A stretch of 34,870 bases of DNA, from contig CAIPKT010000149.1 in assembly GCA_903865705.1 (NCBI GenBank), positions 1 to 34,870 on the forward strand. Reading direction: 5' to 3'. Position numbers and translations under genes: made by a program. This document shows, in pieces, positions 10,939 through 34,870 of the stretch; the stretch's first letter is position 1; each line of letters opens with the position of its first letter. The notes below the pieces were generated by a model. It saw nothing but the letters and a program-made list of their open reading frames with translations. It was not told the origin of the DNA and did no database searches. The DNA comes from an uncultured Chlorobiaceae bacterium (GTDB lineage: Bacteria; Bacteroidota; Chlorobiia; Chlorobiales; Chlorobiaceae).

Positions 10939-12024
10939 TCAGTTCAAAATCAGGGTCAATCTGTTCTTGTTGTTCACTCGCTGGTAATCAATACCCTGCG
11001 TCATGTTACGGATCAGACTCAAACCAGATTCATCTGCCACCTCAGTGCTGTCGAGCGGGTTAACAGCCTCTCCTGCGCTTTCCAATACCAGTTCAACGCG
11101 TCCCTGCTTTTCCGAATAGGCAAGAGTCATATCAAGAACAGTGGTCAAAAGAAGATGCCGGTATATCCTGAGCAGCTCCTCAATCGTCAAGAGCAAATTC
11201 TGTCGAGTCTTTAACGGCAGAATCTGCTTTTCACAAAAAACCTCTATCTCGGCATGCATGGTAAAAAGATCATATTTGGGGGATGCAATATGATAGTGAA
11301 TGCTTCTTACCCTGTTGATGAAAGCCCGTGTCTTTTCCTTTTGCGGATTGTCGAATATCTGCTTCGGAGAACCTTCTTCATAAATAATCCCCTCATCCAT
11401 ATACATGACACGGTTAGAGACATCTCTTGCAAATTCCATTTCATGGGTAACAATAACCATGGTCATCCCCTTTTTGCCCAGACGACGAATAACCGACAAC
11501 ACTTCACTGACCATGGTCGGATCAAGCGATGAGGTTGGCTCATCAAAAAGAATAATTTCAGGATCCATAGCCAGACACCGGGCAATAGCTACCCGCTGTT
11601 TTTGCCCGCCTGAAAGTTCATCCGGATAATTGTGAGCCTTTTCGGCAAGCCCCACCAAAGTGAGAATTTCCATGGCTTTCTGCTCAGCCTCTTGCTTACT
11701 CTTGCCCAACAGTTTAATGGGGGCGATGGTCAGATTGTCCATGACACAAAGATGAGCGAAAAGATTAAACGACTGAAAAACCATGTTCATTTTCTGTCGG
11801 ATTTTCGGCACATCTGTTTTTGAATCAAGAATATCAACCCCGTCAATATAAATAGAGCCGCCACTTGGCCTGTCAAGCAGATTGATGCAACGCAACAAGG
11901 TACTTTTGCCGGTTCCGGAAGGCCCGATTATTGAGATGACCTCTCCTTCCCTGATTTCAAGATTGACATCCTTGAGTACAGCGAGGTTCCCGAAATTTTT
12001 CGAAAGATGCTCTACCTTTATCAT
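10939..12024 (-). CDS. Polar amino acid ABC transporter ATPase (GlnQ type) with RsbW-like C-terminal tail
   Basis: Residues 1-242 are a standard GlnQ/HisP-type ATPase. Walker A is GPSGTGKST (34-42), the Q-loop lies in VFQSFNLF, the signature is LSGGQKQR, Walker B is IILFDEP, and the switch histidine is in IVTHEM. Normal family members end here at about 240-250 residues, but this one continues for some 119 more. The tail has the pattern of a HATPase_c_2/anti-sigma (RsbW-like) fold: LLLTIEELLRIYRHLLL at the N-box position, a strand-rich middle, and ESGLSLIRNMTQGIDYQ at the glycine-box position. The Asn expected in the N-box is not there, so ATP binding by the tail is doubtful; a regulatory role is inference. 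The gene overlaps the permease stop by 4 nt (ATGA), showing translational coupling. Confidence 0.92.
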   Translation of the reverse strand: MIKVEHLSKNFGNLAVLKDVNLEIREGEVISIIGPSGTGKSTLLRCINLLDRPSGGSIYIDGVDILDSKTDVPKIRQKMNMVFQSFNLFAHLCVMDNLTIAPIKLLGKSKQEAEQKAMEILTLVGLAEKAHNYPDELSGGQKQRVAIARCLAMDPEIILFDEPTSSLDPTMVSEVLSVIRRLGKKGMTMVIVTHEMEFARDVSNRVMYMDEGIIYEEGSPKQIFDNPQKEKTRAFINRVRSIHYHIASPKYDLFTMHAEIEVFCEKQILPLKTRQNLLLTIEELLRIYRHLLLTTVLDMTLAYSEKQGRVELVLESAGEAVNPLDSTEVADESGLSLIRNMTQGIDYQRVNNKNRLTLILN

Positions 12025-12914
12025 ACGCCTTCGATTTGCTTTCTTTTTGATTTAGGATCAACCAGTCGTTCGACATACTCAAGTGAAAGCATAAGAACCC
12101 AGGAGATGAAAAAATAGAGGATTGCAACCATGACCAGCGGGAAAAAAGCATCAAAAGTACGGCTTCTGATAATATCGCTGGCTTTCGTCAAATCTTGAAC
12201 AGCGATATAACCGACAACAGAGGTCATTTTGACCAGAGAAATAAATTCGCCCTTGTAAACCGGCAGAATGCGCTGGATAGTTTGAGGCAGGATAATAAAA
12301 ATAAAAGTATTGACTCTGGTAAAACCCATGGCAATACCGGCCTCAGTCTGCCCCTTGTCTATACTGTTAATGCCCGCCCGGTAAATCTCCGCAACATAAG
12401 CTGCAAAATTCATCCCGAATGCAATGACAGAGACAATGACGGGGTTAATATCTACTGAAGCAAAAACAACATAAAACATCAACATCAAAAAAACCAGCAC
12501 CGGCATCCCGCGCAATATTGATATATAGACTTTCGCCATGGCACTCAGCGCCCTGTTGGGTGACATTCGCATGAAACATACCAGCCCTCCAAGCAGGGTA
12601 CCGAAAAGAGTTGCGCAAACCGAGATAATAGCAGTGGTCTTCAATCCATCCAGAAGGATGAGATAACGGTCCTCCTGAATGATGTTGCTGTAAAAGCTCC
12701 CCGTAAAAGAAGCCAGTAATGACGATAATCCCCCATTATCCATGCCAGCTAAGTTCAGTTGGCCAAGTGGCAGGTTGTTGGGCAGGAGATAAAGCATACA
12801 CCCTATTGCAATCAAAAGCACGATATGCTTTACGGTAAACCTTTGCATTCCGAAATCGTTTTCTTTTAAAAAATTCACGTTGAATCTTATTCCCCCGATA
12901 TTCCGGGACGCCAC
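12021..12914 (-). CDS. Polar amino acid ABC transporter permease (HisM/GlnP family)
   Basis: This inner-membrane permease subunit is up to 297 residues long. After a first hydrophobic segment (IVLLIAIGCMLYLLP) come further membrane helices. The cytoplasmic EAA loop reads EAGIAMGFTRVNTFIFIILPQ, where the ATPase docks, and AAYVAEIYRAGINSI precedes it as in HisM/GlnP proteins. The ORF-track start is a GTG (12914); an in-frame GTG and an ATG at residue 23 are alternatives, and the ATG would still keep the first helix. The gene overlaps the ATPase gene by 4 nt and lies 85 nt after the binding protein gene, so the three make one importer operon. Confidence 0.9.
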   Translation of the reverse strand: MASRNIGGIRFNVNFLKENDFGMQRFTVKHIVLLIAIGCMLYLLPNNLPLGQLNLAGMDNGGLSSLLASFTGSFYSNIIQEDRYLILLDGLKTTAIISVCATLFGTLLGGLVCFMRMSPNRALSAMAKVYISILRGMPVLVFLMLMFYVVFASVDINPVIVSVIAFGMNFAAYVAEIYRAGINSIDKGQTEAGIAMGFTRVNTFIFIILPQTIQRILPVYKGEFISLVKMTSVVGYIAVQDLTKASDIIRSRTFDAFFPLVMVAILYFFISWVLMLSLEYVERLVDPKSKRKQIEGV

Positions 12915-12999: not shown

Positions 13000-13782
13000 T
13001 CATTCTTTAACAAGCGCAGCAATTCCCCCAACGTAATACGGAGTAGAAAAAAGGACCTGCTTCGACCGTTCGCTGGTTATCGTAATGCAGGCCGCAATCA
13101 TGTCAACCTTACCGGAAATCAATGCAGGAATCATTCCTCCAAAATCCATATTCACAATCACCAGTTTCTTGTCCAGTTTTTTTGCTATACGCTGGGCAAG
13201 CTCAATATCATACCCCACAATTTCTCGCGAGCCATCCACAAACGAAAATGGTTCAGTTACGCTTGAAGTGCCCATCCGCAAAACGCCATTGTTTCCACTT
13301 GAAGTAATTTGCGGCATTGGAGCAGGATTTCCTGATTTGGGGAACCAACGTTTCAACATCTGCTCAGTCGTTCCATCTTTCTTCAGATCACCTACCACCG
13401 CATCTATTGTTTTTTTTAGCTCAAGATCATCACGCCGCACGGCAAACCCATAGTTGTCAACCGTAATCATATCCTTAAGAACAACAAGGCCACTGTTTTT
13501 AGCGGCAATGTTTTTCAAGATAGGCTCATCATAAGCAGCCGCATCCGCCTTGCCGGATTTAACCGCAAGCGCAGCATCCATAACGCTGTTAAAATATTTG
13601 AACTTGGCATTTGGTAACTTTGAAAGCACTAACTGATCGGCTACGGTGCCGGTTGGAATGGCAAACTCTTTTCCGTTAAGTTGTTGAAGTTCACTTATTT
13701 TCTCTCTTTTGCTGCAGCCCGACAAAATCAGGCATGAGCAAAAAAATACCGTGATAACAAGGCCAAGCCTATTGCTTCTCAT
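13000..13782 (-). CDS. Amino acid ABC transporter substrate-binding lipoprotein, circularly permuted family 3 domain
   Basis: A lipoprotein signal peptide ends in the lipobox LILSGC (Cys23), so the mature protein is membrane-anchored. What follows is in unusual order. Residues 30-150 match lobe 2 and the C-terminal part of family 3 binding proteins: LNGKEFAIPTGTVAD, GKADAAAYDEP, YGFAVRRDD and a final DGTTEQMLKRWFP. Then comes a Pro/Ser/Gly linker and lobe 1, which normally comes first: LRMGTSSVTEPFSFVDG, the family signature GYDIELAQRIA, and ITITSERSKQVLFSTPYY. The protein ends at IAALVKE, the usual lobe 1 to lobe 2 crossover. Ligand residues R239 and D85 are both retained, so it should still bind an amino acid. 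The permease and ATPase genes follow on the same strand. Confidence 0.9.
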   Translation of the reverse strand: MRSNRLGLVITVFFCSCLILSGCSKREKISELQQLNGKEFAIPTGTVADQLVLSKLPNAKFKYFNSVMDAALAVKSGKADAAAYDEPILKNIAAKNSGLVVLKDMITVDNYGFAVRRDDLELKKTIDAVVGDLKKDGTTEQMLKRWFPKSGNPAPMPQITSSGNNGVLRMGTSSVTEPFSFVDGSREIVGYDIELAQRIAKKLDKKLVIVNMDFGGMIPALISGKVDMIAACITITSERSKQVLFSTPYYVGGIAALVKE

Positions 13783-17704: not shown

Positions 17705-19777
17705 TCACATGAAATCGTCCAGGAATTCGGATGCTGGTTCAGAACCTGTTACCAGCAGGCAATCGCGAGCCCTTGTACACGCAACGTAAAGCAAATGTCG
17801 TTCGGTGTTGTATACCTCTTCAAGATCGGTTTCGTCAGTGACTTTTTCGATTCGTTCTTGATGCGGGATGACTTCGTCGTCACAGGCCATAACGGCAACT
17901 GCACGAAATTCGAGCCCTTTGGCAAGATGCATGGTTCCGATTGATATATGCCCGGAAGTTGTTTCGAGATGTTCGTCAAGCACTTTATATGGGATGCCTG
18001 ACGCTTCGATTGCTTTGCGGGCCCGGTTGATTTCGGCTGAAGAGCGAACAAATATTCCTATTTCATAAGGCATTAATCCTTCTTGTGTTCGTTCCAGTAT
18101 CCAGGTGCTCACAAGCTTGATCTCTTCTTCCGGGGTGTTGAGGACTTTTATTATTGGGGCTGGACCGTTGAAGAGTGAAATTGTTCCGCTCCGTTTTTCA
18201 ATGTTGCCATCGACATCTGAGAGTTCAGGTGATAATAAACGATCTGCCTGTGTTCTGATTTGGTGTGATGTTCGGTAATTGATATGGAGGGTTCGTGACC
18301 TGCCGCGAATATCAATGCCAAGTGCTTTCCATGAAAATGGCAACTGAAAAATCCGCTGGCCAAGGTCTCCAGCGAAAAAGAGGCTGTTGGGTTTGTTGGG
18401 TGCGAGTGCTGCCAGAAACCGCAACTGGGCAATGCTGATATCCTGCGCTTCATCAACTACGATATAGTCGAATGGCTTTTTCTCACTGGCTTCAAGTCTG
18501 GCTGCTAATCTGGAGAACATCGCTGATGCGGTCATTAGATTTTTAGCGTTAAGCCTGGAACGAACTTTTTCGAAGATTTCCCATAACAAAATTCGCTGTT
18601 GCTCGGGCAGCCGGGTTTTTCGACCCAATCTTCTTACATCACGATATTCTTCCCAGTTGTTGAGTTGCCAGGCATCGACGACGTCATCCCATTCGGCGAG
18701 AAGAAAATGCAGACTGAATTTCTGGCCTTCGGTCTCTTGTGCGGCGTCGTGCATGAGTTGCCTAAGCGTCTCTCTATCAGCGATAATGGGCGGTGTTTTT
18801 GGCACATCGGAAAGTCGTTTAGCTATGACATCAATGGCATGAACTTCGAGTCGTTCAGCAATACGAGGGTCATGGCTGATCAGCCGGCGAAGTTTTGTGT
18901 TCAGTGCATAAGCAAGTATTTCCGAAAAGGTGGTGAGCAATACCCTTGCCTCTGGGTTGGTTCGGGCAAGAAAGTATGCCCGGTGCAGTGCAACAATGGT
19001 TTTTCCTGTACCGGCAGAACCGGTGACTTTTGCAGGGCCATTATAGTCACGCTCGACCAGTTCTCGCTGGGATGGGTGGAGAAAGATAGTCCATTTATCC
19101 CATGGATAGTCGAGAGCAGATGCTAATTCATCGATGTTGTTCATGACCCTGAAACGTCTCAAGGCGTCTGGATGGTTGAATGGATTCGTACCAACTGGCA
19201 GCGCTCGGGCAAATTGTGGCTTCCCTCCGGTAGCAATTTCAAGCAGTGCTTCTGATGCTTCACCGGGAAGATGATCGGCCAATTCAAGAATGGAGTCCTC
19301 ATCTGCATTGTGAACGGCTTCTATCCACTCTTTTGGGACTCCGTAGGATAACAGGTCGGCCTCCGGGATTCCTGCAAAAAGAGGTAGTTTGGGCGGTGCA
19401 ACAGCCAAATCTGGAGCTGGATAGCTCTTGGTTCTTATTTCCCTGACCGTTTCCCGAACCTCAACGAGCTGCGCCGCTCCGGTTTTGGGGTGGGTTTCGA
19501 GTTTTCTCCGATTTGCCCAGCGATATGCTTCGTCATGGTGATCGACATAACAAAGCAGAATACTGGTTTCTGTTCTATGAACGATGATGCGAAGATCACC
19601 GCTGACCCTGACGGACCAGAAATTTTTGTCCCGTGCTCGGTCAAGCTTGTGGAAATTCATTCCTGGACTTGCAGAATTCAGTTGCAAATCAAATGCAGTG
19701 GTTTTAACGGTCTTTTGCTCATCGCCTGTCAGCCGGGCAAGGCTATCGGTAAAGGTATCGGCAATACGAAATTCCAT
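17705..19777 (-). CDS. UvrD/Rep-like superfamily 1 helicase with N-terminal RelE-like domain
   Basis: Residues 1-90 look like a RelE/ParE toxin fold: FTDSLARLTGDEQ, then KLDRARDKNFWSVRVSGDLRI, then VDHHDEAYRWA, in the order and spacing of that family. A linker leads into a superfamily 1A helicase with LHPSQRELVERD (Q-motif), GSAGTGKT (253-260, Walker A), IVVDEAQDIS (Walker B), a GDLGQRIF motif III region, NYRTSHQIR, HLAKGLEFRAV and the C-terminal YVACTRARD. It would unwind DNA or RNA with ATP; whether the N-terminal domain cleaves RNA is unknown. The gene begins 18 nt after the methyltransferase stop, so it is the third gene of the restriction operon. No antitoxin gene is adjacent. The function in defence is inferred from context. 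Confidence 0.88.
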   Translation of the reverse strand: MEFRIADTFTDSLARLTGDEQKTVKTTAFDLQLNSASPGMNFHKLDRARDKNFWSVRVSGDLRIIVHRTETSILLCYVDHHDEAYRWANRRKLETHPKTGAAQLVEVRETVREIRTKSYPAPDLAVAPPKLPLFAGIPEADLLSYGVPKEWIEAVHNADEDSILELADHLPGEASEALLEIATGGKPQFARALPVGTNPFNHPDALRRFRVMNNIDELASALDYPWDKWTIFLHPSQRELVERDYNGPAKVTGSAGTGKTIVALHRAYFLARTNPEARVLLTTFSEILAYALNTKLRRLISHDPRIAERLEVHAIDVIAKRLSDVPKTPPIIADRETLRQLMHDAAQETEGQKFSLHFLLAEWDDVVDAWQLNNWEEYRDVRRLGRKTRLPEQQRILLWEIFEKVRSRLNAKNLMTASAMFSRLAARLEASEKKPFDYIVVDEAQDISIAQLRFLAALAPNKPNSLFFAGDLGQRIFQLPFSWKALGIDIRGRSRTLHINYRTSHQIRTQADRLLSPELSDVDGNIEKRSGTISLFNGPAPIIKVLNTPEEEIKLVSTWILERTQEGLMPYEIGIFVRSSAEINRARKAIEASGIPYKVLDEHLETTSGHISIGTMHLAKGLEFRAVAVMACDDEVIPHQERIEKVTDETDLEEVYNTERHLLYVACTRARDCLLVTGSEPASEFLDDFM

Positions 19778-19795
19778 AACAGCGTCTTCAATAAA

Positions 19796-22579
19796 TTATT
19801 CTACTCGAAAGACCTTCATAACCTCGTCGCCAAGGTGGTTGATGACTTTTACTGCAATTCGACCGGTTTCCGGCTTATCGAACGGGCGGGAGATGTTGCT
19901 GTGGAGCGTTGCCCAGGCCTCTTCATTGATTTCAGCCTTGAGGGTGGTTTTGAGCGATTTGTAGGGGTCGTTGGCGCCAAGGAAATAGGCGTGCCGGACA
20001 AAGAATGATTCCATGTTGTAGTCGGTGTCGATGAACCAGCAGGCTATACCTTCGGCTCCATCACTGCGCACTTCGCCGGTGTTGGGGTGAAAAACGTCAA
20101 CGCCGTTGACTTGTACCTGTATCTGGCCATTATCTGATGGGATGATGTCGATATCTGGCTCACCAAAGATGACAAAGAGGTTACCTTTGCCGGTGTTTTT
20201 GAGGTCGTCGGCCATGTGCAGATCGGCGTTCATCCGTGCCTTCAGCACCGGGATACGACCCAGTTTGTTGAAGTCCGCGGAGTGGGCATCGTAGTTGAAG
20301 GCGCAGGTGATCAGCACGTCAAAGTCGGCATCACCCGCTTCACGGGCAGCGGCAACAAGGTCAGGACGTGAAACCGTGCCGAATTCGGGTCCGATGAAGA
20401 TAGCCGCCCTTCGTTCAACCCCTTCATGTGCTTCGATATACTTTCCTTCAGCACAAATAAGCTCTCCCGGCCAGGGAGTGAGGGAGGTAAAAGTGACTTT
20501 GTCATCCTTGTGCGCTTGCTGTACTCCGGCATTTTTGAGGTTTTCGAGAATCATCTGAACAAAACTGCGCTCTTCGCCATAGGCGTTGCCGGAATTGCCC
20601 AGCGTGTCGAGCAGTTCATCGTTTTCACCTACACCAAGCACCCGATGAGGGGAGATGCTTTCAACCGTAAAGGGGCCAGCGACACGGACTTTCTTTTTAT
20701 CGACGTAGGGCTTGTCGTAGAGATATTCAGAATCGGCTTTTGCCGCAATGGAGGCATCAATCTCCTGCTGCCGAGCTATGCGCTCTGCCCACCATGCGGC
20801 ATGAAGTGTTGTTGCTTCTTCCGACCATTGCTTGCCAGCTTCACGAGGGATTTCCCACTCCTGCCAGGTCTTGCCAAGCGCCTTGTTAAGCTTTTCACGA
20901 AGCGGTTCAAGGGTCAATTGATACTTGTCCCAAATGACATCAATTTCAGCATTGTTGGCAATTGACTTCAGGGTGACATGCGGAACCCGCTCATAGACAA
21001 AACCATGACGGATATCGCCTCTTGTCGGCTGGGATGATGGCGCTGCATCAGTCAATGCCGCTTCCTTTAATTGACCTTCACGGCTGTCGGCAAGCAGATA
21101 GTAAGCGTAGCGAGCACCCATAATGCGAGCACGAGCCAAGGCAAGCGCCACACGTGAGGTGTCGATGGTGATCCAGCGGCGACCCCATTGTTCTGCGACA
21201 TAAGCAGTGGTGCCGGAGCCGCAGGTTGGGTCGAGCACCAGGTCACCGGGATCGGTGGCCATGAGGATGCAGCGCTCAACAATTTTTGTCGCTGTTTGGA
21301 CAATATAATTTTTATCGACAAGTCGTGTGTCGTTCCAAATGTTTGTGAGCTTACGTAACGGAAAATCATCAAGATATTGTTTGTAGGCCAAACTTGCGCC
21401 ATATGGAAAAAGTCGCTTGTTTGCCAATAAGCTAAGAAGTTTTTCTTTCCTCGCAGTTATCCAACATTTACCTTTCGGCGGATTGTATACTTTTCCCTGC
21501 CATTCAACAGGGAATACCGATTTTTCGTCGAAAGAGGGGGCCTGTATTGGTACCGGATTGAATAATTTGCTTTTAGTTGGTATAGATGAAGGATTCTCTT
21601 TTTCTTCTTTTGTTGTCCCTCTGTTTGAGCCGTCCTCAAGTTCGAGTTGATCCCATCTTGTGAGAGTGCCGTCATCCTCTTTGTATAACTGCCTATATTT
21701 AGCAGATGAGATGTTCCGAGAATACCAAAGTATGTAGTCATACATATTTTCAAGATTCTTAGCCCCAAGAGTCATTGCCTTTTTTCTGAACGGTATAAGG
21801 CAGACAAAGCTTTGATCCCCAAACACCTCATCCATCAACGCCCTGACCCGATGCACGTTCTCATCCCCAATCTGCACAAAAATCGAACCTGACTCAGTCA
21901 ATAAATCCCGTGCCACCGTGAGCCGGTCGCGCAAGTAGGTGAGATAAGAGTGAATGCCATCACGCCAGGTATCACGAAACGCTTTGACCTGCTCAGGCTC
22001 GCGGGTGATATGGTCAGTGTTGCCATCCTTGACATCGCGGCTGGTAGTTGACCACTGGAAGTTGGAGTTGAATTTGATACCATAAGGCGGATCAAAATAG
22101 ATGCACTGCACTGCTCCTCGCAGCCCTTCACGCTCGGCAAGACTCGCCATGACCTGAAGGCTGTCGCCAAGGATCATGCGGTTAGCCCAGTGGGCATCGT
22201 GCTGGTAGAACTCCGTTTTGGCATTGTCATCAGGGAGACCGTTGAAATCAGCAAAAAGGTCGCACTGGGTATCGGCAGCCTTTGCATCGGCTTTGCTTCG
22301 GCGGAGCAGGTCGTCGATGAGCACTTTCGGGTGAACTTTTTCTTGGATATAGAGCGGTGGAGCCTGAACAACAAGGTCACTCCAGTCCTGCTCGTCTTTG
22401 CCGCGCCAGACAAGCTGAGGGTCGAGGTCACGGTTGCGACGGTCATAAGCAACACGAACAGGGCTCTGTTCATTTTTTTCCATGACCGACTGATGTTCGG
22501 CAGTTGGAATGTTTTTGCGTGTTGCCTCGTCGTGGCGGATGGTTTCGACTTCCAAATATGATGTTGGTTTTTTTGCCAT
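19796..22579 (-). CDS. Type III-like site-specific DNA methyltransferase (N6-adenine, beta class)
   Basis: This 927-residue Mod-type enzyme transfers a methyl group from S-adenosylmethionine to adenine. The catalytic motif IV, YFDPPYGIKF, comes first (DPPY near residue 163), and the SAM-binding motif I, LDPTCGSGTTAYVAEQ, comes later, which is the beta-class order. The segment between them, including VPIQAPSFDEKS, would be the target recognition domain and is noticeably more AT-rich than its flanks. A long C-terminal region of about 350 residues follows and ends in GDEVMKVFRVE. The start is ATG 22579, preceded by GAAGAG; the ORF-track TTG start adds 16 residues. It lies between the restriction subunit gene (58 nt upstream) and the helicase gene (18 nt downstream) in one operon. 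Confidence 0.92.
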   Translation of the reverse strand: MAKKPTSYLEVETIRHDEATRKNIPTAEHQSVMEKNEQSPVRVAYDRRNRDLDPQLVWRGKDEQDWSDLVVQAPPLYIQEKVHPKVLIDDLLRRSKADAKAADTQCDLFADFNGLPDDNAKTEFYQHDAHWANRMILGDSLQVMASLAEREGLRGAVQCIYFDPPYGIKFNSNFQWSTTSRDVKDGNTDHITREPEQVKAFRDTWRDGIHSYLTYLRDRLTVARDLLTESGSIFVQIGDENVHRVRALMDEVFGDQSFVCLIPFRKKAMTLGAKNLENMYDYILWYSRNISSAKYRQLYKEDDGTLTRWDQLELEDGSNRGTTKEEKENPSSIPTKSKLFNPVPIQAPSFDEKSVFPVEWQGKVYNPPKGKCWITARKEKLLSLLANKRLFPYGASLAYKQYLDDFPLRKLTNIWNDTRLVDKNYIVQTATKIVERCILMATDPGDLVLDPTCGSGTTAYVAEQWGRRWITIDTSRVALALARARIMGARYAYYLLADSREGQLKEAALTDAAPSSQPTRGDIRHGFVYERVPHVTLKSIANNAEIDVIWDKYQLTLEPLREKLNKALGKTWQEWEIPREAGKQWSEEATTLHAAWWAERIARQQEIDASIAAKADSEYLYDKPYVDKKKVRVAGPFTVESISPHRVLGVGENDELLDTLGNSGNAYGEERSFVQMILENLKNAGVQQAHKDDKVTFTSLTPWPGELICAEGKYIEAHEGVERRAAIFIGPEFGTVSRPDLVAAAREAGDADFDVLITCAFNYDAHSADFNKLGRIPVLKARMNADLHMADDLKNTGKGNLFVIFGEPDIDIIPSDNGQIQVQVNGVDVFHPNTGEVRSDGAEGIACWFIDTDYNMESFFVRHAYFLGANDPYKSLKTTLKAEINEEAWATLHSNISRPFDKPETGRIAVKVINHLGDEVMKVFRVE

Positions 22580-22637
22580 GGTTCTCTTCTTCTGGTCTGG
22601 TTTTCCTGTTTGTGTTCGCCACTGCAAGCTTTAGATT

Positions 22638-25600
22638 CTATGATGCCTCTGCTGCGACAGGTGGTGAACAGTGATCAATCATTGTGTTGAATGATTCGGC
22701 AACTTTTGTTTCGAAGTCTGGTTCAAACGAGTATATCTCGGTGAATTCTGCAAATGCCCATCGGCCATAGGTGCCGAGATTGTTCACTCCTGGAATCCAG
22801 TAGGTATCCATGGTGGATTTTTTCTCTTTGGCATCTTCCCGGCGGTATCCTTTGATTTCTACAACAAGATGCAGAAGGTCGTTTTCGCCGTGGCCGTCAT
22901 CGACGAGTACAATAAAGTCGGGGCGGTAGCGGCGCATTTCGGAGCCATATCGGTAAGGGACTTCAAAACCAAGACTGTGGTTTTTGACATAAGCCCGAAC
23001 TTTGGGGTGTGATTCGGCTATACGGCAGAATTCTGCTTCCCAGTCACTATCGAGAATGACCCAGTTGATATGGCATCGACGGTCATCGGTTTTCCAACGG
23101 TCAAGTTTGGATGTATTGAAGTTTACATGAATGGTTGAGCCGGTTGGATTATAGGGCTCGAGCACGGCTTTGATGGGTCGTTTGCCTATTTGAGCAAGGG
23201 TTATGGCCGTTGTTATCCGGTTGCAGGCCATGTCTGCAAGCTCTTGATACATAAGTTGTGCCGGCCAGGTGCCGCCTTTGCAGACAAGGCAGGTATCAAG
23301 CCATTGTTTGGTAATCCGTTTGAGTTGACCGAAAAGGTGCAGTTTTGGCGCTTCTTCAGGGTCTCTCCATTTTGTGTAGAGCAGGCGCTGGGTCAGATGA
23401 AAAAGCAGCGTGGAGCGCCGCATATCGCCGAGATGCTCAAGATTGAGGTTGACGGATTCGCCAATAATTCCGGAGTTTCTTGTGATTGACGGGCCGACAA
23501 GTTCCGGGGTGAGTTCAAGAATCGAGTCTTGTGTGAATTCAGCGGTGAGCTGTTCTTCAGGCAGTTCTACCCGGTAGCCGGCAACATTTGGAAATATGAT
23601 TTCAAGGTTGTCACGATCAGGACAAACGGCTTTGACGTTGATGGTGTTGCGGGGTGGTTGTGGTGGAGCAATCACCGGTTTTGCAGTAAAGTCGAATGGT
23701 ATGCCGAGTACGTCGGCATATTCAACGTTGAAGAGGCCTGTCACTTCGTTAAGCTCATAAGATTGACGACGAAGGGCGCGACCGATGACCTGTTCGCAAA
23801 GCAACTGAGTGCCAAATGCACGAACACCAAGCACGTGAGTAACGGTGTTGGCGTCCCAACCTTCGGTCAGCATGGATACGGAGACGACACATCGGATTGA
23901 TTGACCCAGCCGTCCCTCTTTTCCGACGGTATTCATGACTTCGCGAAGAAGCTCTTGATCGGAGATACTTTCTGCCTTTTGTCGGTCTCTGGTTCTTTCA
24001 ATGATGTCGCGGCGGAACCTTTCGATTTCGTCTCCAGCCATCTCACGAAAGTTTTTATCGAGAGCATCGCCGGATTCAAGCTGTTCGCTATCAATCAGCA
24101 GGGTTCTTGGTTGAGGAATCGGATCACCGTGTTCATTGAAATTTCTGAAGAGTTCAAGCCGACCGTTCATCAATTGTGTAGAGCCGTCTTCCTGCTCACG
24201 GTAAAAGCCTGAGATGTAGTCGTAGACAAGCTTTGAGGTTGAGGTGTTGTTGCAGACAACGATGAAACAGGGTGGCACTCTTAACCCATCTGATTCCCAC
24301 AGGTCAAAGGTTTTTTTGTAGTGGCCATAAAGCGCCTCAAGTGCCGTCTGCAATTCAACAGGTAAACTAAGCGGGTCGAGCGTTTTTGACTTGCCTCGCC
24401 CTTTTTTGGGCATTCTTGTGCGAATATGCTCCCAGAGGTTTCTGAATTTGGGCATTTCACCACCAGGAATATTGTCGGCAACCGGTACTCGTGGCAGTTT
24501 CACAATGCCGCATTCTATTGCATCCATCAGTGAAAAGTCGCTCAAAGTCCAGGGAAAAAGTGTTCCTTCAACATACCCTGATCCACTCAGAAAAAACGGG
24601 GTGGCAGAGAGGTCCATCACCCTTGTGACTCCAAGCTTCCGATTGACGGTTTCCAAGCCAGATATCCAGACTCGTGCGGCTTCGTTATTCTCTTCGGCCT
24701 CTTTTTTGTCGTCGCCTTTGAGGTCTATATCTTCTTCAGGGGTTGGCTTTTCTCGATAACAGTGATGTGCTTCGTCATTGATGACCATGATGTTTTTTAT
24801 GCCCATCAGGTCAGGTATAACACGTTGCAGCATCTGCCCTTCAGTTTCAACGGTGTTGAGTTTTTCACCTCGACCTTGAAGCAGCGCCCTGCCGCCTTTT
24901 GATATGTCAATTCGTTCGCGCAGTTTGAAGGCGTGGTAGTTTGTGATAACGATTTTGGCTCGTTCGATATCACTGATCATATCATTTGGAACAAGTTCAC
25001 GACTTTGGTAGTAGCTATAGGGATCATTAGGCTGCAAGACGCGAAGCCGGTCGCGAATGGTTATGCCGGGGGTGACAATCAGGAAGCCTCGAGTGAATTT
25101 TTTGCTTTGTGGTCTTCGTGTCGCATTTACCACCTGCCAGGCAATAATCATGGCCATCACGGTGGTTTTGCCTGCGCCGGTGGCAAGTTTCAGTGCAAGT
25201 CGGGTTATTTCCGGGTTGGCATTGTTGTTGGCATCTTCGAGGTGGTCGAGAAATCGTTTACCTGCCTTCCCTGCCTGTGGAGCTACCTCTGTGAGCCAGA
25301 TTGCTGTTTCGACCGCTTCGATTTGGCAGAAAAAAGGTTTGATACTGTTGAACTTGTGGTGCCGCCAGTGTTGCAGAAGCCTGGCTGTTTCAGGGGTTAC
25401 CTGCCAGTTGTTTGGATTTGGAATGGATCTCCATTTGTCAACTTCTTGGCGAACAGCATTGATAAGGGAGGTCTGATCGTATTGCTGTTTTTCACTTGAC
25501 AACCCCTTTCCTTCATCAAAAACAATCTGCTGTTGCTCCGAGCTGCTCCGCCGCTTTTTTGGCTTTGGAATGGGTGTTATAAATTCAGCGCGACGTCGTG

Positions 25601-25709
25601 TTTCGATGACCTTTTGTGTTGGTTGGCCATCTTTATCAAGTTCCCAGTGTCGAACAGGATAATCGTAAGGGGAGTTGAGAATGGGATGGTCAAAAAAGGG
25701 ATTGCTCAT
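22638..25709 (-). CDS. Type III-like restriction endonuclease subunit (DEAD/DEAH translocase plus nuclease)
   Basis: This is a large Res-type protein of about 1023 residues. The superfamily 2 motor has LATGAGKT (about residues 176-183), VINDEAHHCYRE (DEAH), DLSATPFFL (motif III), SMLTEGWDANTVTHV and QVIGRALRR (motif VI). The C-terminal part has a PD-(D/E)xK pattern in YRPDFIVL and LVVEIKGYRRED, the likely nuclease. It resembles the long Res proteins of the BPTD_3080 type rather than classical EcoP1I Res. The start is ATG 25709, with AAGGTGAT 9 nt upstream. It is the first gene of the operon, ahead of the methyltransferase gene, the reverse of the usual mod-res order. Methylation-dependent self-protection would therefore need the downstream gene to be made promptly. 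Confidence 0.92.
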   Translation of the reverse strand: MSNPFFDHPILNSPYDYPVRHWELDKDGQPTQKVIETRRRAEFITPIPKPKKRRSSSEQQQIVFDEGKGLSSEKQQYDQTSLINAVRQEVDKWRSIPNPNNWQVTPETARLLQHWRHHKFNSIKPFFCQIEAVETAIWLTEVAPQAGKAGKRFLDHLEDANNNANPEITRLALKLATGAGKTTVMAMIIAWQVVNATRRPQSKKFTRGFLIVTPGITIRDRLRVLQPNDPYSYYQSRELVPNDMISDIERAKIVITNYHAFKLRERIDISKGGRALLQGRGEKLNTVETEGQMLQRVIPDLMGIKNIMVINDEAHHCYREKPTPEEDIDLKGDDKKEAEENNEAARVWISGLETVNRKLGVTRVMDLSATPFFLSGSGYVEGTLFPWTLSDFSLMDAIECGIVKLPRVPVADNIPGGEMPKFRNLWEHIRTRMPKKGRGKSKTLDPLSLPVELQTALEALYGHYKKTFDLWESDGLRVPPCFIVVCNNTSTSKLVYDYISGFYREQEDGSTQLMNGRLELFRNFNEHGDPIPQPRTLLIDSEQLESGDALDKNFREMAGDEIERFRRDIIERTRDRQKAESISDQELLREVMNTVGKEGRLGQSIRCVVSVSMLTEGWDANTVTHVLGVRAFGTQLLCEQVIGRALRRQSYELNEVTGLFNVEYADVLGIPFDFTAKPVIAPPQPPRNTINVKAVCPDRDNLEIIFPNVAGYRVELPEEQLTAEFTQDSILELTPELVGPSITRNSGIIGESVNLNLEHLGDMRRSTLLFHLTQRLLYTKWRDPEEAPKLHLFGQLKRITKQWLDTCLVCKGGTWPAQLMYQELADMACNRITTAITLAQIGKRPIKAVLEPYNPTGSTIHVNFNTSKLDRWKTDDRRCHINWVILDSDWEAEFCRIAESHPKVRAYVKNHSLGFEVPYRYGSEMRRYRPDFIVLVDDGHGENDLLHLVVEIKGYRREDAKEKKSTMDTYWIPGVNNLGTYGRWAFAEFTEIYSFEPDFETKVAESFNTMIDHCSPPVAAEAS

Positions 25710-25914
25710 ATCAGATATCACCTTTGGTCAGTGTATTGAAAAGAAAAATATGATTGGCTCAATTCTATCCATCAAAACTCATGCAATATTGCTTTATTTA
25801 TCATTTATTCACATCAAACAAAAGAAATAAGGTGGGTTACATGCAAATTTATTGCTGGTAATATGTTGAATAAATAGCAGATAGTGGGAAATATGATGCC
25901 CAGCAATTCACAAG

Positions 25915-30333: not shown

Positions 30334-31140
30334 CTACGGGACGAAAACCAGGCGGAAGCCAATGCCGCCGACCCGGCCGGCGGGGAAGTCGTCGGATCGA
30401 GAAGCCGACCGACAGTACTCGGCGTTGGTGAGCCGGCACCCGCCACGAATCACACAGTCCGAACCCGTTGATGGCCCAGTGGGATTTGTAACAACACCTT
30501 GCGCTTTACAGTCATCATAAAAGGTTCCACCGTACCAATCGCTGCACCACTCCCAGACATTACCGTGCATGTTGTACAAACCATAAGCGTTAGGCGCAAA
30601 ACTGTTTACCGCAACAGTATTCCGCCGATAAACCCCTGTCGGATTACCATTGTACGGATAATTGCCGTCATAATTTGCTTGGTTGGTCGTTAGGTTCTCT
30701 CCTGTATTGAACGGGGTTCTGCTGCCTGCCCGGCAGGCGTACTCCCACTCCGCTTCAGTAGGCAAGCGATACACTTTGCCTCTTTTTGCCGAAAGTGCTT
30801 TGCAATAGGCCGTAACATCATACCAACTCACATTAACCACGGGGTCGTTCGTTTCTCCCTGGTTGGCCCCTTCGTTCCACTGGTAACCTGTTGCTGCAAC
30901 AAATTTCCTGAACTCGGCAACCGTTACTTCATATTTAGCCATATAAAAGTTACTCACTTTTACCCGATGCAGAGTCTCATCGCTCTGGTGACCAACTTCA
31001 CCCTCGGGGCTTCCCATCGTAAAGGTGCCGCCGCGAATCAGCACAAACTCCATCGCGTTTGCTGACATTGCTCCGCTGAAAAACATGAACACAGCAAGAA
31101 AAAGAGCAAGAATGATGGAATAAATGCGTTTTGGTTTCAT
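30334..31140 (-). CDS. Secreted SUMF/FGE-fold protein, copy 1 (putative DGR target)
   Basis: The 268-residue product from ATG 31140 has a Sec signal peptide (MKPKRIYSIILALFLAVFMF, cleaved near ANA). It then has one SUMF (formylglycine-generating-enzyme-like, C-type-lectin fold) domain: FVLIRGGTFTMGSPEGE, YEVTVAEFRKF, YRLPTEAEWEYACR, YNMHGNVWEWCSDWYGG and the terminal IGFRLVFVP. The paired catalytic cysteines of true FGE are not evident, so it is more likely a binding protein than an enzyme. It is the exported partner of the kinase module upstream, but its own kinase gene is only a remnant whose stop overlaps this ATG. The last 40 codons differ sharply from copy 2, while the rest is closely similar. 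Confidence 0.85.
   Translation of the reverse strand: MKPKRIYSIILALFLAVFMFFSGAMSANAMEFVLIRGGTFTMGSPEGEVGHQSDETLHRVKVSNFYMAKYEVTVAEFRKFVAATGYQWNEGANQGETNDPVVNVSWYDVTAYCKALSAKRGKVYRLPTEAEWEYACRAGSRTPFNTGENLTTNQANYDGNYPYNGNPTGVYRRNTVAVNSFAPNAYGLYNMHGNVWEWCSDWYGGTFYDDCKAQGVVTNPTGPSTGSDCVIRGGCRLTNAEYCRSASRSDDFPAGRVGGIGFRLVFVP
30361..30459 (-). repeat. Putative DGR variable region of SUMF copy 1
   Basis: This is the 3'-terminal codon stretch between conserved TGS and GFRLVF. It encodes RGGCRLTNAEYCRSASR followed by SDDFPAGRVGG. Compared codon by codon with the region at 31411-31509, I count 33 differences in 99 bases. 27 of them are in first or second codon positions, and nearly all are compatible with A-rich (AAC-like) template codons. 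Confidence 0.6.
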
Positions 31141-31319
31141 CTTTTGGCCCAAAAGAAAATGGTTAAAACGTTGGTACGACCATGATTGGCCAAATGGGGC
31201 AGTAGCTCCTTGATGGCCACTTTCTGGCCCGTCTTCAAGTCGATACCAAGATAGACCCGGCTCATCCCACCCTCTCCAAGAAGGCGCTCTATCTGATAGT
31301 TCAGTATCTGTTGTTCCAT
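31137..31319 (-). pseudogene. Internally deleted Ser/Thr kinase gene remnant
   Basis: The first 46 codons match the intact kinase downstream almost perfectly, including the glycine loop LLGEGGMSRVYLG and the ATP lysine in VAIKEL. The sequence then jumps from LANH straight to bases that match the very end of the intact kinase gene (CGTACCAAC, then TTTAACCATTTTCTTTT), now in another frame, and stops after FFWAKR. About 1 kb, holding the catalytic loop, DFG, membrane segment and extracytoplasmic tail, is missing. The product of 60 residues cannot be a kinase. The remnant's stop overlaps the SUMF copy 1 ATG, so its translation might still feed ribosomes to that gene. Confidence 0.85.
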
Positions 31320-31383
31320 AGACTACGTTCCTTGAAGGATATCTTTTTATAAACTTAAAACGACAGAATGAACTGCCAACTGA

Positions 31384-32313
31384 CTAAGGGGCGAAGACCA
31401 GGCGGAAGCCAACGCGGTTGAACCGAGAGATTGGGGGGTAGTAGTTCCGAAAAGCCGACCGACAGTACTTCGCGTGTCCGCCCCAGCCCCCGCCACGAAG
31501 CAAACGCTCCGAACCCGTTGATGGCCCCTGAGGGTTGGTCACCGTGCCGTTCGCTTTACATTCGTCATAATAGGTTCCACCGTACCAGTCGCTGCACCAC
31601 TCCGCAACATTGCCGTGCATGTTGTACAATCCCCACGCATTGGGCGCAAAACTGTTTACCGCAACGGTATTCTGCCGGTAAACTCCATTCAGATTGCCAT
31701 TGTACGGATAATTGCCGTCATAATTTGCCTGTTTGGTCGTCAGGTTCTCTCCAGTATTGAACGGAGTTTTGCTTCCTGCACGGCAGGCATACTCCCACTC
31801 CGCTTCAGTAGGCAAACGATACAGCTTGCCTCTTTTTGCCGAGAGCGCTTTGCAATAAGCCATAGCATCATTCCAGCTCAAATGAACCACGGGATCGTTC
31901 TCTTCACTCTGAGGTCGAATATTCCCTGAAAATCCATGGCGCCAGTTTACTCCTGCTCTATTTTCCCAAGTGGTGCCATTCCAAATATAGCTGCCATCTC
32001 CTTTTTCGGCATCTGTCCGATACCCTGTTGCTGCAACAAATTTCCTGAACTCGGCAACCGTTACTTCATATTTGGCCATATAAAACTCACTCACTTTTAC
32101 CCGATGCTGAGTTTCACTGTACTCTATCCCATTTTCCTGCCAAAAAGCCATGATTTCAGCCCTGCCAGCTTCACCCTCAGGGCTTCCCATCGTAAAGGTG
32201 CCACCGCGAATCAGCACAAACTCCATAGCTTTCGCTGGCATTGCTCCGCTGAAAAACATGAACACAGCAAGAAAAAATGCGGGAATGATGGAACAAATGC
32301 GTTTTGGTTTCAT
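31384..32313 (-). CDS. Secreted SUMF/FGE-fold protein, copy 2 (putative DGR target)
   Basis: From ATG 32313 the protein is 309 residues. A Sec signal peptide (MKPKRICSIIPAFFLAVFMF, cleaved near AKA) is followed by a SUMF domain with the same blocks as copy 1. It carries an extra loop of about 40 residues before NDPVVHLSW. The ORF-track start 48 codons upstream overlaps the end of the kinase gene and would hide the signal peptide. The C-terminus reads RGGGWGGHAKYCRSAFR, then NYYPPISRFNRVGFRLVFAP, the hypervariable stretch. The gene begins 22 nt after the stop of the intact kinase gene, so the two are probably cotranscribed: a secreted ligand-binding protein with a membrane kinase. The ligand is unknown. 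Confidence 0.87.
   Translation of the reverse strand: MKPKRICSIIPAFFLAVFMFFSGAMPAKAMEFVLIRGGTFTMGSPEGEAGRAEIMAFWQENGIEYSETQHRVKVSEFYMAKYEVTVAEFRKFVAATGYRTDAEKGDGSYIWNGTTWENRAGVNWRHGFSGNIRPQSEENDPVVHLSWNDAMAYCKALSAKRGKLYRLPTEAEWEYACRAGSKTPFNTGENLTTKQANYDGNYPYNGNLNGVYRQNTVAVNSFAPNAWGLYNMHGNVAEWCSDWYGGTYYDECKANGTVTNPQGPSTGSERLLRGGGWGGHAKYCRSAFRNYYPPISRFNRVGFRLVFAP
31411..31509 (-). repeat. Putative DGR variable region of SUMF copy 2
   Basis: This is the counterpart of 30361-30459. Invariant stretches (CGTGGCGGG, TACTGTCGGTCGGCT and TTGGCTTCCGCCTG) alternate with codons such as AAC, TAC, GGC and CAC that pair with different residues in copy 1. A template repeat with AAC at these sites would generate both versions by A-to-N changes. 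No third copy (candidate template) is in the window. Confidence 0.6.
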
Positions 32314-32335
32314 CTTTTGACCTAAAAGAAAATGG

Positions 32336-33466
32336 TTAAAAAGTTGGTACGTTAATATTGGAAGGCTTTTCCGGAACAGACTCCGGACGGGCTGGTGCTG
32401 AAGCCGGATATTCAGCAGGGGTCTCAGCAGGTGCTGCTGGCGCCTCTGGTGCCTCAACCGAATATTCAGCGGCAGGCGCTGCGGGAGCCTCGACTGGCGC
32501 TTCTACAGGTGCCTCTTGTTTACTACGGCTATTCAAGCTCAATACCCCAATTAAAAACGCAAAAAACAAAATCAATGCGATAAGAAATTTCCCGAATGAA
32601 GCGAATGATTCTACAGGAGGAGGATTAGGTCGCGGTTGCGGTGGTGCCGGCGCATGTATCGCCCGCATAAAATCGTTGCAGTTCCGATACCGATCTCCCT
32701 TCTCTTTTGACGTTGCTTTGTCCACAATCCTCTGCATCTTTTCCGAGACATACTCATAAGTACTCTTCATCCTCGGTAACGGCTCTTTGACAATCTTGAC
32801 CTGCACCTCAAATTCCGATTCGGTTTCCATATCATAAGGGGCTTTGCCGGTCAGCATCTGATACAACAGCACTCCCAATGAGTAAATATCTGTCCTCTCA
32901 TCAACCTCTCGGCCATTCACCTGCTCAGGACTCATATAGGCCAGAGTTCCCATACGAATACCTGTCTTGGTATGCAGTGTACTGCTGCTTCCAGCGGCTA
33001 TTTTTGCAATACCGAAATCGACAACCTTGACTTGCTTGCCTTTGGTAATGATGATGTTTGAGGGTTTGATGTCACGGTGAATCACCTCATTGTCATGCGC
33101 ATAAGCAAATGCCTCCAGTAACTGGCAAAAGAGTTCTTTTGCTTCTTCTTCAGGAATCGGACCTTTTTCCTTTGCGATATACTCTTCAAGAGTCACCCCC
33201 TCAATGTATTCCTGAACAAGAAAGAGTCGTGTGCCGATCTCTTCGTAGCGGATAAGACGAACAATATGCTGATGGCTGAGTTTCGCCATAAATTGCGCCT
33301 CACGCCGAAACCGGTCACGCAGTTCATCATGATTGGCCAGTTGCGCCAGCAGCTCTTTGATGGCTACTTTCTGGCCAGTCTTCAAGTCGATACCAAGATA
33401 GACCCGACTCATCCCACCCTCTCCAAGAAGGCGCTCTATCTGATAGTTCAGTATCTGTTGTTCCAT
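32336..33466 (-). CDS. Membrane Ser/Thr protein kinase (Hanks type)
   Basis: This 376-residue kinase phosphorylates Ser/Thr. It has the glycine loop LLGEGGMSRVYLG (13-25), Lys37, HRDIKPSN (130-137), DFGIAK (150-155) and MSPEQVNGREVDERTDIYSLG. A single membrane helix FLIALILFFAFLIGVLSL (about 294-311) follows a proline-rich juxtamembrane stretch. The outer part is a low-complexity tail of Ala/Pro/Glu repeats (APVEAPVEAPAAPAAEY) without a recognisable fold, ending in NINVPTF. The gene is followed 22 nt later by SUMF copy 2, and the pair looks like one sensory unit, with the secreted protein in place of a fused sensor domain. The start ATG 33466 gives the normal kinase N-terminus. It is nearly identical to the third copy in the kinase domain but differs in the tail. 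Confidence 0.93.
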   Translation of the reverse strand: MEQQILNYQIERLLGEGGMSRVYLGIDLKTGQKVAIKELLAQLANHDELRDRFRREAQFMAKLSHQHIVRLIRYEEIGTRLFLVQEYIEGVTLEEYIAKEKGPIPEEEAKELFCQLLEAFAYAHDNEVIHRDIKPSNIIITKGKQVKVVDFGIAKIAAGSSSTLHTKTGIRMGTLAYMSPEQVNGREVDERTDIYSLGVLLYQMLTGKAPYDMETESEFEVQVKIVKEPLPRMKSTYEYVSEKMQRIVDKATSKEKGDRYRNCNDFMRAIHAPAPPQPRPNPPPVESFASFGKFLIALILFFAFLIGVLSLNSRSKQEAPVEAPVEAPAAPAAEYSVEAPEAPAAPAETPAEYPASAPARPESVPEKPSNINVPTF

Positions 33467-33705
33467 TGTTACGCTTGAGAGATCATGAAAAATGGGTCAG
33501 CCTTGTACCTGAAAAGCGATAATCATTACAGTAATGCGAAAAAAATAACGGCGAAGGAGTTGCCAATAACTTGCCTGATATTTCGGGAGACTCTGCCACT
33601 GTTGAGAGAAAAACGATATAACCACTTTCAAACAGTTTTCTGTATTTGTGCAGAGATCAATGTTACTGAAATAGTGCCCGACAAGTTGTTTCCCTTAAAT
33701 CAGTC

Positions 33706-34870
33706 TCAATCAATTCCATATATTTCTTTTATTTTCATATCACGATCAAAAACAAAAAATATCCTATTAAATTTGACACTAACTTTTTTCCGAATAGTGC
33801 CTAAATATTCAAATCTTGTAAATAAGATGTATGTTGATTCGTCTTGCCTTTCAATATTAATAATTTTGTTTTTCGAATAAGCAGTTATGCCCCAGACATA
33901 CTGAATTTTGTTATAGATTTGTTCAGAAGTAGGACTCAAAATATCCCAATATCTGCTCATGTTCGTGGATAAATATTTAGTTATACCAGCAATATCTCTG
34001 TTATCTTCAGCTTCTACAAAGCTTCTGATAATACTGGCGTATTCGTTACTGTCTTGATCAGGGATAGGGCTGTAAACTTCTGCAGGGGCCTCAGCAGGTG
34101 CTGCTGGCGCCTCTGGTGCCTCAACCGGATATTCAGCGGCAGGCGCTGCGGGTGCCTCGACTGGCGCTTCTACAGGTGCCTCTTGTTTACTGCGGCTATT
34201 CAAGCTCAATACCCCAATTAATAAAAACACAAGAAGCATGACAAGTAAAATTAGTCCTGAATGCAGAGAATGATCTTCAGGAGGAGTAATCTTAGGTCGC
34301 GGTTGCGGAGGTGACGGTGCATGTATCGCCCGCATAAAGTCGTTACAGTTCCGATACCGATCTCCCTTCTCTTTTGACGTTGCTTTGTCCACAATCCTCT
34401 GCATCTTTTCCGAGACATACTCATAAGTACTCTTCATCCTCGGTAACGGCTCTTTGACAATCTTGACCTGTACCTCAAATTCCGAATCCGTCTCCAAATC
34501 GTAGGGCGCTTTGCCGGTCAGCATCTGATATAACAGCACTCCCAATGAGTAAATATCTGTCCTCTCATCAACCTCCCGACCATTCACCTGCTCAGGGCTC
34601 ATATAGGCCAGGGTTCCCATACGAATACCTGTCTTGGTATGCAGTGTACTGCTGCTTCCAGCGGCTATTTTTGCAATACCGAAATCGACAACCTTGACTT
34701 GCTTCCCTTTGGTAATGAGGATGTTTGATGGCTTGATATCGCGGTGAATCACCTCATTGTCATGCGCATAAGCAAATGCCTCCAGCAACTGGCAAAAGAG
34801 TTCTTTAGCTTCCTCTTCCGGAATCGGGCCTTTTTCTTTTGCGATATACTCCTCAAGAGTTACTCCTTCA
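33706..34870 (-). CDS. Membrane Ser/Thr protein kinase, 5' end beyond window, distinct C-terminal domain
   Basis: The frame is open to the window edge. The ORF track starts at an internal TTG; the real start lies past 34870. From EGVTLEEYIAKEKG onward it matches the other kinase almost residue for residue: HRDIKPSN, DFGIAK, MSPEQVNG. A membrane helix (LILLVMLLVFLLIGVLSL) and the same APVEAPVEAPAAP repeats follow. The tail then diverges into a folded-looking domain of about 110 residues (YASIIRSFVEAEDNRDIAGI, later FNRIFFVFDRDMKIKEIYGI). Its helix-then-strands pattern with charged loops resembles an NTF2/SnoaL-like domain; that is a tentative reading. No SUMF gene follows, only about 240 bases to the next kinase gene. 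This copy may therefore carry its own sensor instead of a separate one. Confidence 0.88.
   Translation of the reverse strand, partial: EGVTLEEYIAKEKGPIPEEEAKELFCQLLEAFAYAHDNEVIHRDIKPSNILITKGKQVKVVDFGIAKIAAGSSSTLHTKTGIRMGTLAYMSPEQVNGREVDERTDIYSLGVLLYQMLTGKAPYDLETDSEFEVQVKIVKEPLPRMKSTYEYVSEKMQRIVDKATSKEKGDRYRNCNDFMRAIHAPSPPQPRPKITPPEDHSLHSGLILLVMLLVFLLIGVLSLNSRSKQEAPVEAPVEAPAAPAAEYPVEAPEAPAAPAEAPAEVYSPIPDQDSNEYASIIRSFVEAEDNRDIAGITKYLSTNMSRYWDILSPTSEQIYNKIQYVWGITAYSKNKIINIERQDESTYILFTRFEYLGTIRKKVSVKFNRIFFVFDRDMKIKEIYGID

Follow-up and report, generated by a model that had tools for sequence, protein, structure and literature searches.

Does the gene at positions 13000-13782 of the window (the whole stretch of 34,870 nucleotides analysed here, from an uncultured Chlorobiaceae bacterium) encode a working amino-acid-binding protein with the two lobes of its family in swapped order, and how would such an order have arisen? 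We are highly confident of the following answer to the first part: the predicted product is a natural circular permutant that works as the periplasmic amino-acid-binding lipoprotein of a HisMQ/GlnPQ-type ABC importer. The gene and its parts are as follows.

13000..13782, minus strand: circularly permuted family 3 solute-binding lipoprotein (SBP), 260 aa (sequence, profile matches, AlphaFold2)
13714..13782, minus strand: signal peptide and lipobox LSG-C23, residues 1-23 (sequence reading; low pLDDT at residues 1-7 and 18-22)
13333..13701, minus strand: lobe 2 and C-terminal helices, residues 28-150, canonical ~98-222 (phmmer, profiles)
13528-13530, minus strand: ligand Asp85, in lobe 2 (aligned with 6svf)
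13294..13332, minus strand: Gly/Ser/Pro linker, residues 151-163, bridging the former C- and N-termini (gap separating the two profile-matched blocks; modelled without secondary structure)
13003..13293, minus strand: lobe 1, residues 164-260, canonical 2-95, containing GYDIELAQRIA (phmmer, profiles)
13066-13068, minus strand: ligand Arg239, in lobe 1 (aligned with 6svf)

Chain order of the window protein

The protein was classed as a lipoprotein because its signal peptide ends in the lipobox LSG-C23. PF00497 matched it over both lobes at 1.2e-34, and TIGR01096, the best NCBIfam model (6e-39), matched it in separate stretches. The order read in the preliminary description (signal peptide, lobe 2, C-terminal helix, linker, lobe 1) was borne out by phmmer against PDB chains and by tests with rotated profiles. 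Query residues 33-148 aligned with 6svf 114-228 and residues 164-258 with 6svf 8-102 (whole-sequence E value 3e-39), and three further listed alignments were swapped likewise. When the sequence was rotated (residues 163-260 followed by 26-150), the two stretches that TIGR01096 matches in the native protein (133.9 bits) became a single one, covering profile positions 24-250 of 250 with 149.7 bits; the other models tried on the rotated sequence behaved in the same way. A canonical profile built in this analysis from 20 canonical domains (225 positions) matched the native protein first at positions 98-222 (74 bits) and then at positions 2-95 (101 bits), while a doubled copy of the sequence was matched once, over positions 2-222, with 193 bits. 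This two-piece match places the new ends at canonical 95|98, where the canonical chain first passes from lobe 1 into lobe 2, which agrees with the earlier proposal that they lie at the natural crossover between the lobes.

The canonical order (lobe 1, lobe 2, C-terminal helices) is thus replaced by lobe 2, C-terminal helices and lobe 1. As had also been reported, the usual blocks are present once each: GYDIELAQRIA, TITSER (with Arg239) and ADAAAYDEP (with Asp85). Both ligand residues are conserved among close homologues and align with those of the family in 6svf. Judged by its sequence, the protein is a family 3 SBP that appears to deviate in chain order only. Two artefactual origins of the order were rejected. 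A hidden frameshift, which the preliminary description had named as a possible refutation, or an adjacent normal lobe was ruled out by a six-frame scan of the window that found no other lobe 1 or lobe 2; an assembly artefact was ruled out because dozens of independent assemblies show the identical ORF arrangement.

The permuted clade and its permeases

The genes for a permease and an ATPase lie directly beside the SBP gene, downstream of it:

12021..12914, minus strand: HisMQ/GlnP-type permease, BPD_transp_1 (profile matches)
10939..12024, minus strand: GlnQ-like ABC ATPase (residues 1-236) with an extra C-terminal domain (profile matches)
10942..11316, minus strand: SpoIIAB/RsbW-like (GHKL) domain, ATPase residues 237-361 (HATPase_c_2, AlphaFold2, Foldseek)

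The GTG start listed for the permease probably lies too far upstream, the homologue in L002 beginning at residue 23, position 12848. Elsewhere in the window, the minus-strand stretch 17705-25721 looks as if it encodes a UvrD-like helicase and, after it, what we take to be a restriction-modification pair of type III (mod 19796-22627, res 22638-25721). In 30334-34788 (minus strand), genes for Ser/Thr protein kinases and for formylglycine-generating-enzyme-like proteins recur, with near-identical kinase stretches within 32336-33466 and 33706-34788 on that strand.

A search for related loci returned 45 loci. By sequence comparison the window SBP is placed within a clade of permuted domains found in Chlorobiaceae, Ignavibacteria, Geobacter, some Proteobacteria and Firmicutes. 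Permeases with N-terminal permuted binding domains (SBDs) accompany the free SBP or its operon in Chlorobiaceae, Ignavibacteria, Geobacter, Azonexus and Lachnospiraceae, with one SBD in L020, L040 and L046, two in L027, L028 and L034, and three in L016 (1015 aa, L016:5755-8802) and L025 (990 aa). A 1270-aa protein of a Burkholderiaceae MAG comprises four SBDs and a permease, and a Firmicute protein of 916 aa (L080:1609-4359) joins a permuted SBD, a permease, an ABC ATPase and a further C-terminal extension. The swapped order was seen in all complete SBD repeats of these fused relatives. The window itself has a free SBP and a separate permease, and no SBD-permease fusion. The clade contains four SBD types, two of which (e.g. 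repeats 1 and 3 of L016:5755-8802) lack the ligand Asp and may for that reason bind something other than ordinary amino acids; the window type keeps both residues.

The family was found in 31 of the 297 sampled genomes of the window's phylum, 25 of these 31 belonging to the window's genus (its own genome included), and at least 20 sampled genomes of that genus are without it. At 1e-30 it was absent from the other 197 sampled genomes of the phylum of genome G300 and from the other 248 of that of G299. This patchy distribution suggests horizontal transfer. One locus binned as Geobacter (L043) is 88% identical to the window SBP; it and some other 'Geobacter' loci may be misbinned Chlorobium contigs.

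In a permease tree made by a quick method, the stand-alone permease of the window was nested in the group of fused ones. Several relatives carry remnants of a lost SBD at the permease N-terminus, consisting of a signal peptide and a short lobe 2 fragment, or of a stretch of one:

L018:5901-6767, L024:5809-6675, L017:5934-6866, L021:5776-6687, L038:5738-6631: permeases with N-terminal remnants of a lost SBD

The L018 permease reads KYRLLFMVAVCVLCAGFVSK-TYHMSTISQYTSSSDLVQEMKSGHVDA, and its counterpart in the fused L016 protein reads KYRLIFIVAVCLLCSGFVSK...TYPHASILQYKSPSDLVLGVKSGKVDA (score 133, shuffle maximum 43). For all five of these permeases none of 300 shuffles scored as high, and L002 was marginal (1 of 300). 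A remnant was undetected in the N-terminus of the window permease, where 87 of 300 shuffles scored as high. The tree and the remnants in relatives indicate that in the window's lineage a fused SBD was probably deleted and the free SBP retained.

Origins of permutation in family 3

A search of Firmicutes with the permuted profile yielded further permuted family 3 SBPs, which occur in ordinary SBP-permease-ATPase operons. Overall, four breakpoints were found in permuted family 3 SBPs (canonical positions): 107|108 in L077-L079, L092 and L093; 126|128 in L089-L091; 169|166 in L086; and the window's own 95|98, also present in L082 and L088. The 126|128 form is present in 11 of the 20 genomes of its family, at 64-89% identity, with two of the copies ending at contig ends.

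A carefully built tree of 71 domains, rotated or canonical, recovered the window's family as one clade with support 100/100. L088 was sister to the canonical L118 (100/99), L089 and L091 fell among canonical proteins (100/99 for the group holding them), L082 and L086 were grouped with the canonical L117 (100/98), and L077-L079 were placed apart. The AU test rejected a common origin both for all permuted proteins (delta lnL 156, p 2e-39) and for the whole set sharing the window's breakpoint (delta lnL 117, p 3e-11); the groups for these tests were set by breakpoint, not by the tree. With one common origin rejected by the trees as well as by these tests, the sequences point to at least five permutation events, reversals disregarded, or to six if L082 and L086 are counted apart.

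One of these events can be followed at a single locus. The permuted SBP L088:3458-4261 (genome G387) and the canonical SBP L148:3764-4528 (genome G424) come from one order and are syntenic: gene order is common to both, two upstream proteins being 56% and 44% identical, the permease 75% and the next gene 85%. The two SBPs are 77% identical in lobe 2 and 79% in lobe 1. In the DNA alignment of the gene, identity is 81% over lobe 1 (260 bp) and 70% over lobe 2 (369 bp), and outside the gene it is 79% upstream (115 bp) and 84% in the intergenic stretch just after it (43 bp). L088 directly records a recent permutation at one locus, and the pair therefore demonstrates that a family 3 SBP gene can rotate in place.

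The preliminary description had derived the permuted form from a domain duplication followed by loss of the outer halves. This route is plausible. Canonical SBP genes do occur as tandem pairs, and permuted domains as tandem arrays, but no intermediate form came to light. Neighbouring canonical SBP genes with gaps of 11, 50 and 143 bp lie in pairs upstream of a permease and an ATPase at L149:918-2422, L150:2766-4309 and L151:2640-4417, so that the raw material for duplication and loss exists. A tandem ancestor of the form lobe1-lobe2-lobe1-lobe2 was sought near L088, and none was present in three genomes of that order.

An alternative is that the window's gene is a chimera, in which lobe 2 of one SBP gene was joined to lobe 1 of another rather than a single gene being rotated. 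Recombination between paralogues would be possible, since some operons hold several SBP genes or SBDs side by side, and the lack of a duplicated intermediate in the window's clade is compatible with it; the lobes of L088, however, are equally close to those of its syntenic canonical counterpart, so that this event, at least, rotated one gene. We consider a chimeric origin unlikely. Since permutations recur elsewhere in family 3, duplication and deletion within the gene would be the likely origin of the window's rotated form as well.

A joint reading of these results can be offered tentatively, at somewhat less than even confidence. Family 3 SBPs may have been permuted repeatedly in place (at least five origins, four breakpoints), and nearly neutrally, because an architecture of lobes and hinge tolerates new ends at little cost; in the window's clade the permuted form may have been kept because the tether, to the lipid or to the permease, then sits at the hinge and not on one lobe.

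Predicted function and comparison with known systems

The locus had been called an otherwise standard importer operon. It is not fully standard: the ATPase has an additional domain attached at its C-terminus, and the permease probably derives from SBD-permease fusions. The attached domain has about 125 residues and also occurs in relatives of several phyla and in Firmicutes operons with fused SBDs. HATPase_c_2 matched 16 of 19 homologues of it (best 1.7e-5), the window copy scoring below the Pfam curated cut-off. The AlphaFold2 model of the domain (pLDDT 90.4) matched SpoIIAB and UsfX in Foldseek with TM 0.71-0.77; by profile and fold match together, the domain has the GHKL fold. Its ATP-binding motifs, read by eye, look degenerate, and a clear Asn box is missing. 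Our guess is that the domain regulates the transporter.

Its conservation on the ATPase, also in fused-SBD operons of several phyla, together with the loss of the ligand Asp from two of the four SBD types, could be taken to mean that the system is a sensor, in which amino-acid occupancy is reported through the transporter to the SpoIIAB-like domain and uptake is secondary. We regard this as quite improbable: the SBD type of the window retains both ligand residues, outside the extra domain the ATPase is of the GlnQ-like transport kind, no obvious ATP-binding Asn box could be read in that domain, and an adjacent signalling gene was not noted.

The AlphaFold2 model of the window SBP, built with 21 permuted homologues as input, was a single fold (pLDDT 91.6, pTM 0.82) that was confident throughout outside the signal region, the linker included, and its helices and strands succeeded one another as in a rotated type II SBP. 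Foldseek matches in the PDB reached TM 0.33-0.49; the values are low because Foldseek needs sequence order, and for the same reason they are uninformative on canonical lobe packing. Among these matches was GlnPQ SBD1-SBD2 (6h30), where the permuted order presumably spans the two tandem domains. The confident prediction of a single chain as one fold bears on a further alternative, a domain-swapped dimer in which the lobes pair between two chains and the flytrap is formed only between molecules. Domain swapping is known from the solved structure of TmArgBP, but a linker of about 15 residues suffices for closure within one molecule, and such a dimer seems very improbable here.

When the window SBP was compared with eight relatives, dN/dS was 0.06-0.09 over the full gene and 0.03-0.09 in either lobe, with dS near 1 or higher, so that the values are rough. 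Strong purifying selection acts on both lobes, and both are therefore maintained by selection. Decay into a functionless remnant of a tandem SBD array, of the kind seen at the permease N-termini of relatives, is scarcely credible for the window SBP and largely refuted by this selection test, the ORF being intact in many genomes and the ligand residues retained. The earlier statement that the permutant is probably functional thus draws support from rotated profiles, structure prediction, conservation and selection (dN/dS 0.03-0.09).

The sequence itself shows a chain with its new ends at the first lobe crossover and a linker of about 15 residues bridging the former ones. In the preferred reading, that of a functional permuted importer component, the protein would fold as the usual two-lobed Venus-flytrap, hold an amino acid between Asp85 of lobe 2 and Arg239 of lobe 1, and pass this ligand on to the permease dimer; its lipid anchor, formerly on lobe 1, would now be on the lobe 2 or hinge side.

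As a rule, circular permutation is deduced by comparing distantly related proteins, when the event itself lies far in the past. With the L088/L148 pair (about 78% identical) and the further events described above, its mechanism, its cost and whether tethering favours it become testable by swapping natural pairs, and permutation in family 3 is open to study as an evolutionary event that repeats. In profile scans, permuted genes appear merely as an SBP with two partial domain matches, and how often permutation occurs is readily overlooked. The literature searched, which covered few subscription journals and preprints, contained no account of a permuted family 3 SBP.

Canonical family 3 SBPs (HisJ, GlnH, ArtJ, TmArgBP; PF00497, type II/cluster F) share with the window protein the blocks of the fold, the ligand Asp and Arg, export as a lipoprotein or to the periplasm and an operon with a HisMQ-type permease and a GlnQ-type ATPase; the window protein differs in its swapped lobes, in termini placed at the lobe crossover and in a linker that connects the former ends. 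The C-terminal domain of the ATPase has a predicted fold in common with the anti-sigma kinases SpoIIAB/RsbW (TM ~0.7), but is only 10-15% identical to them, is fused to an ABC ATPase and has ATP-binding motifs that look degenerate by eye. In GlnPQ, tandem SBD1-SBD2 domains of canonical architecture are fused to the permease (PMC8025302); GlnP SBDs keep the canonical order (L1 L2 L1 L2 in L094), whereas the SBDs of the window's clade, one to four in number, are permuted throughout. Nearest as a precedent comes Tp0684 (MglB-2) of Treponema pallidum, a type I SBP whose circular permutation is proven by a crystal structure and which has been shown to bind glucose (PMC4990184). Like the window SBP, it is a lipid-tethered natural circular permutant, and it has the bilobed fold that is predicted for the window SBP. 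Its permutation is unrelated to that of the window SBP: Tp0684 has the type I (cluster B) sugar fold, with three N-lobe strands moved and a crossover added, whereas all matches of the window SBP are to type II family 3 proteins and not to the type I glucose/galactose fold.
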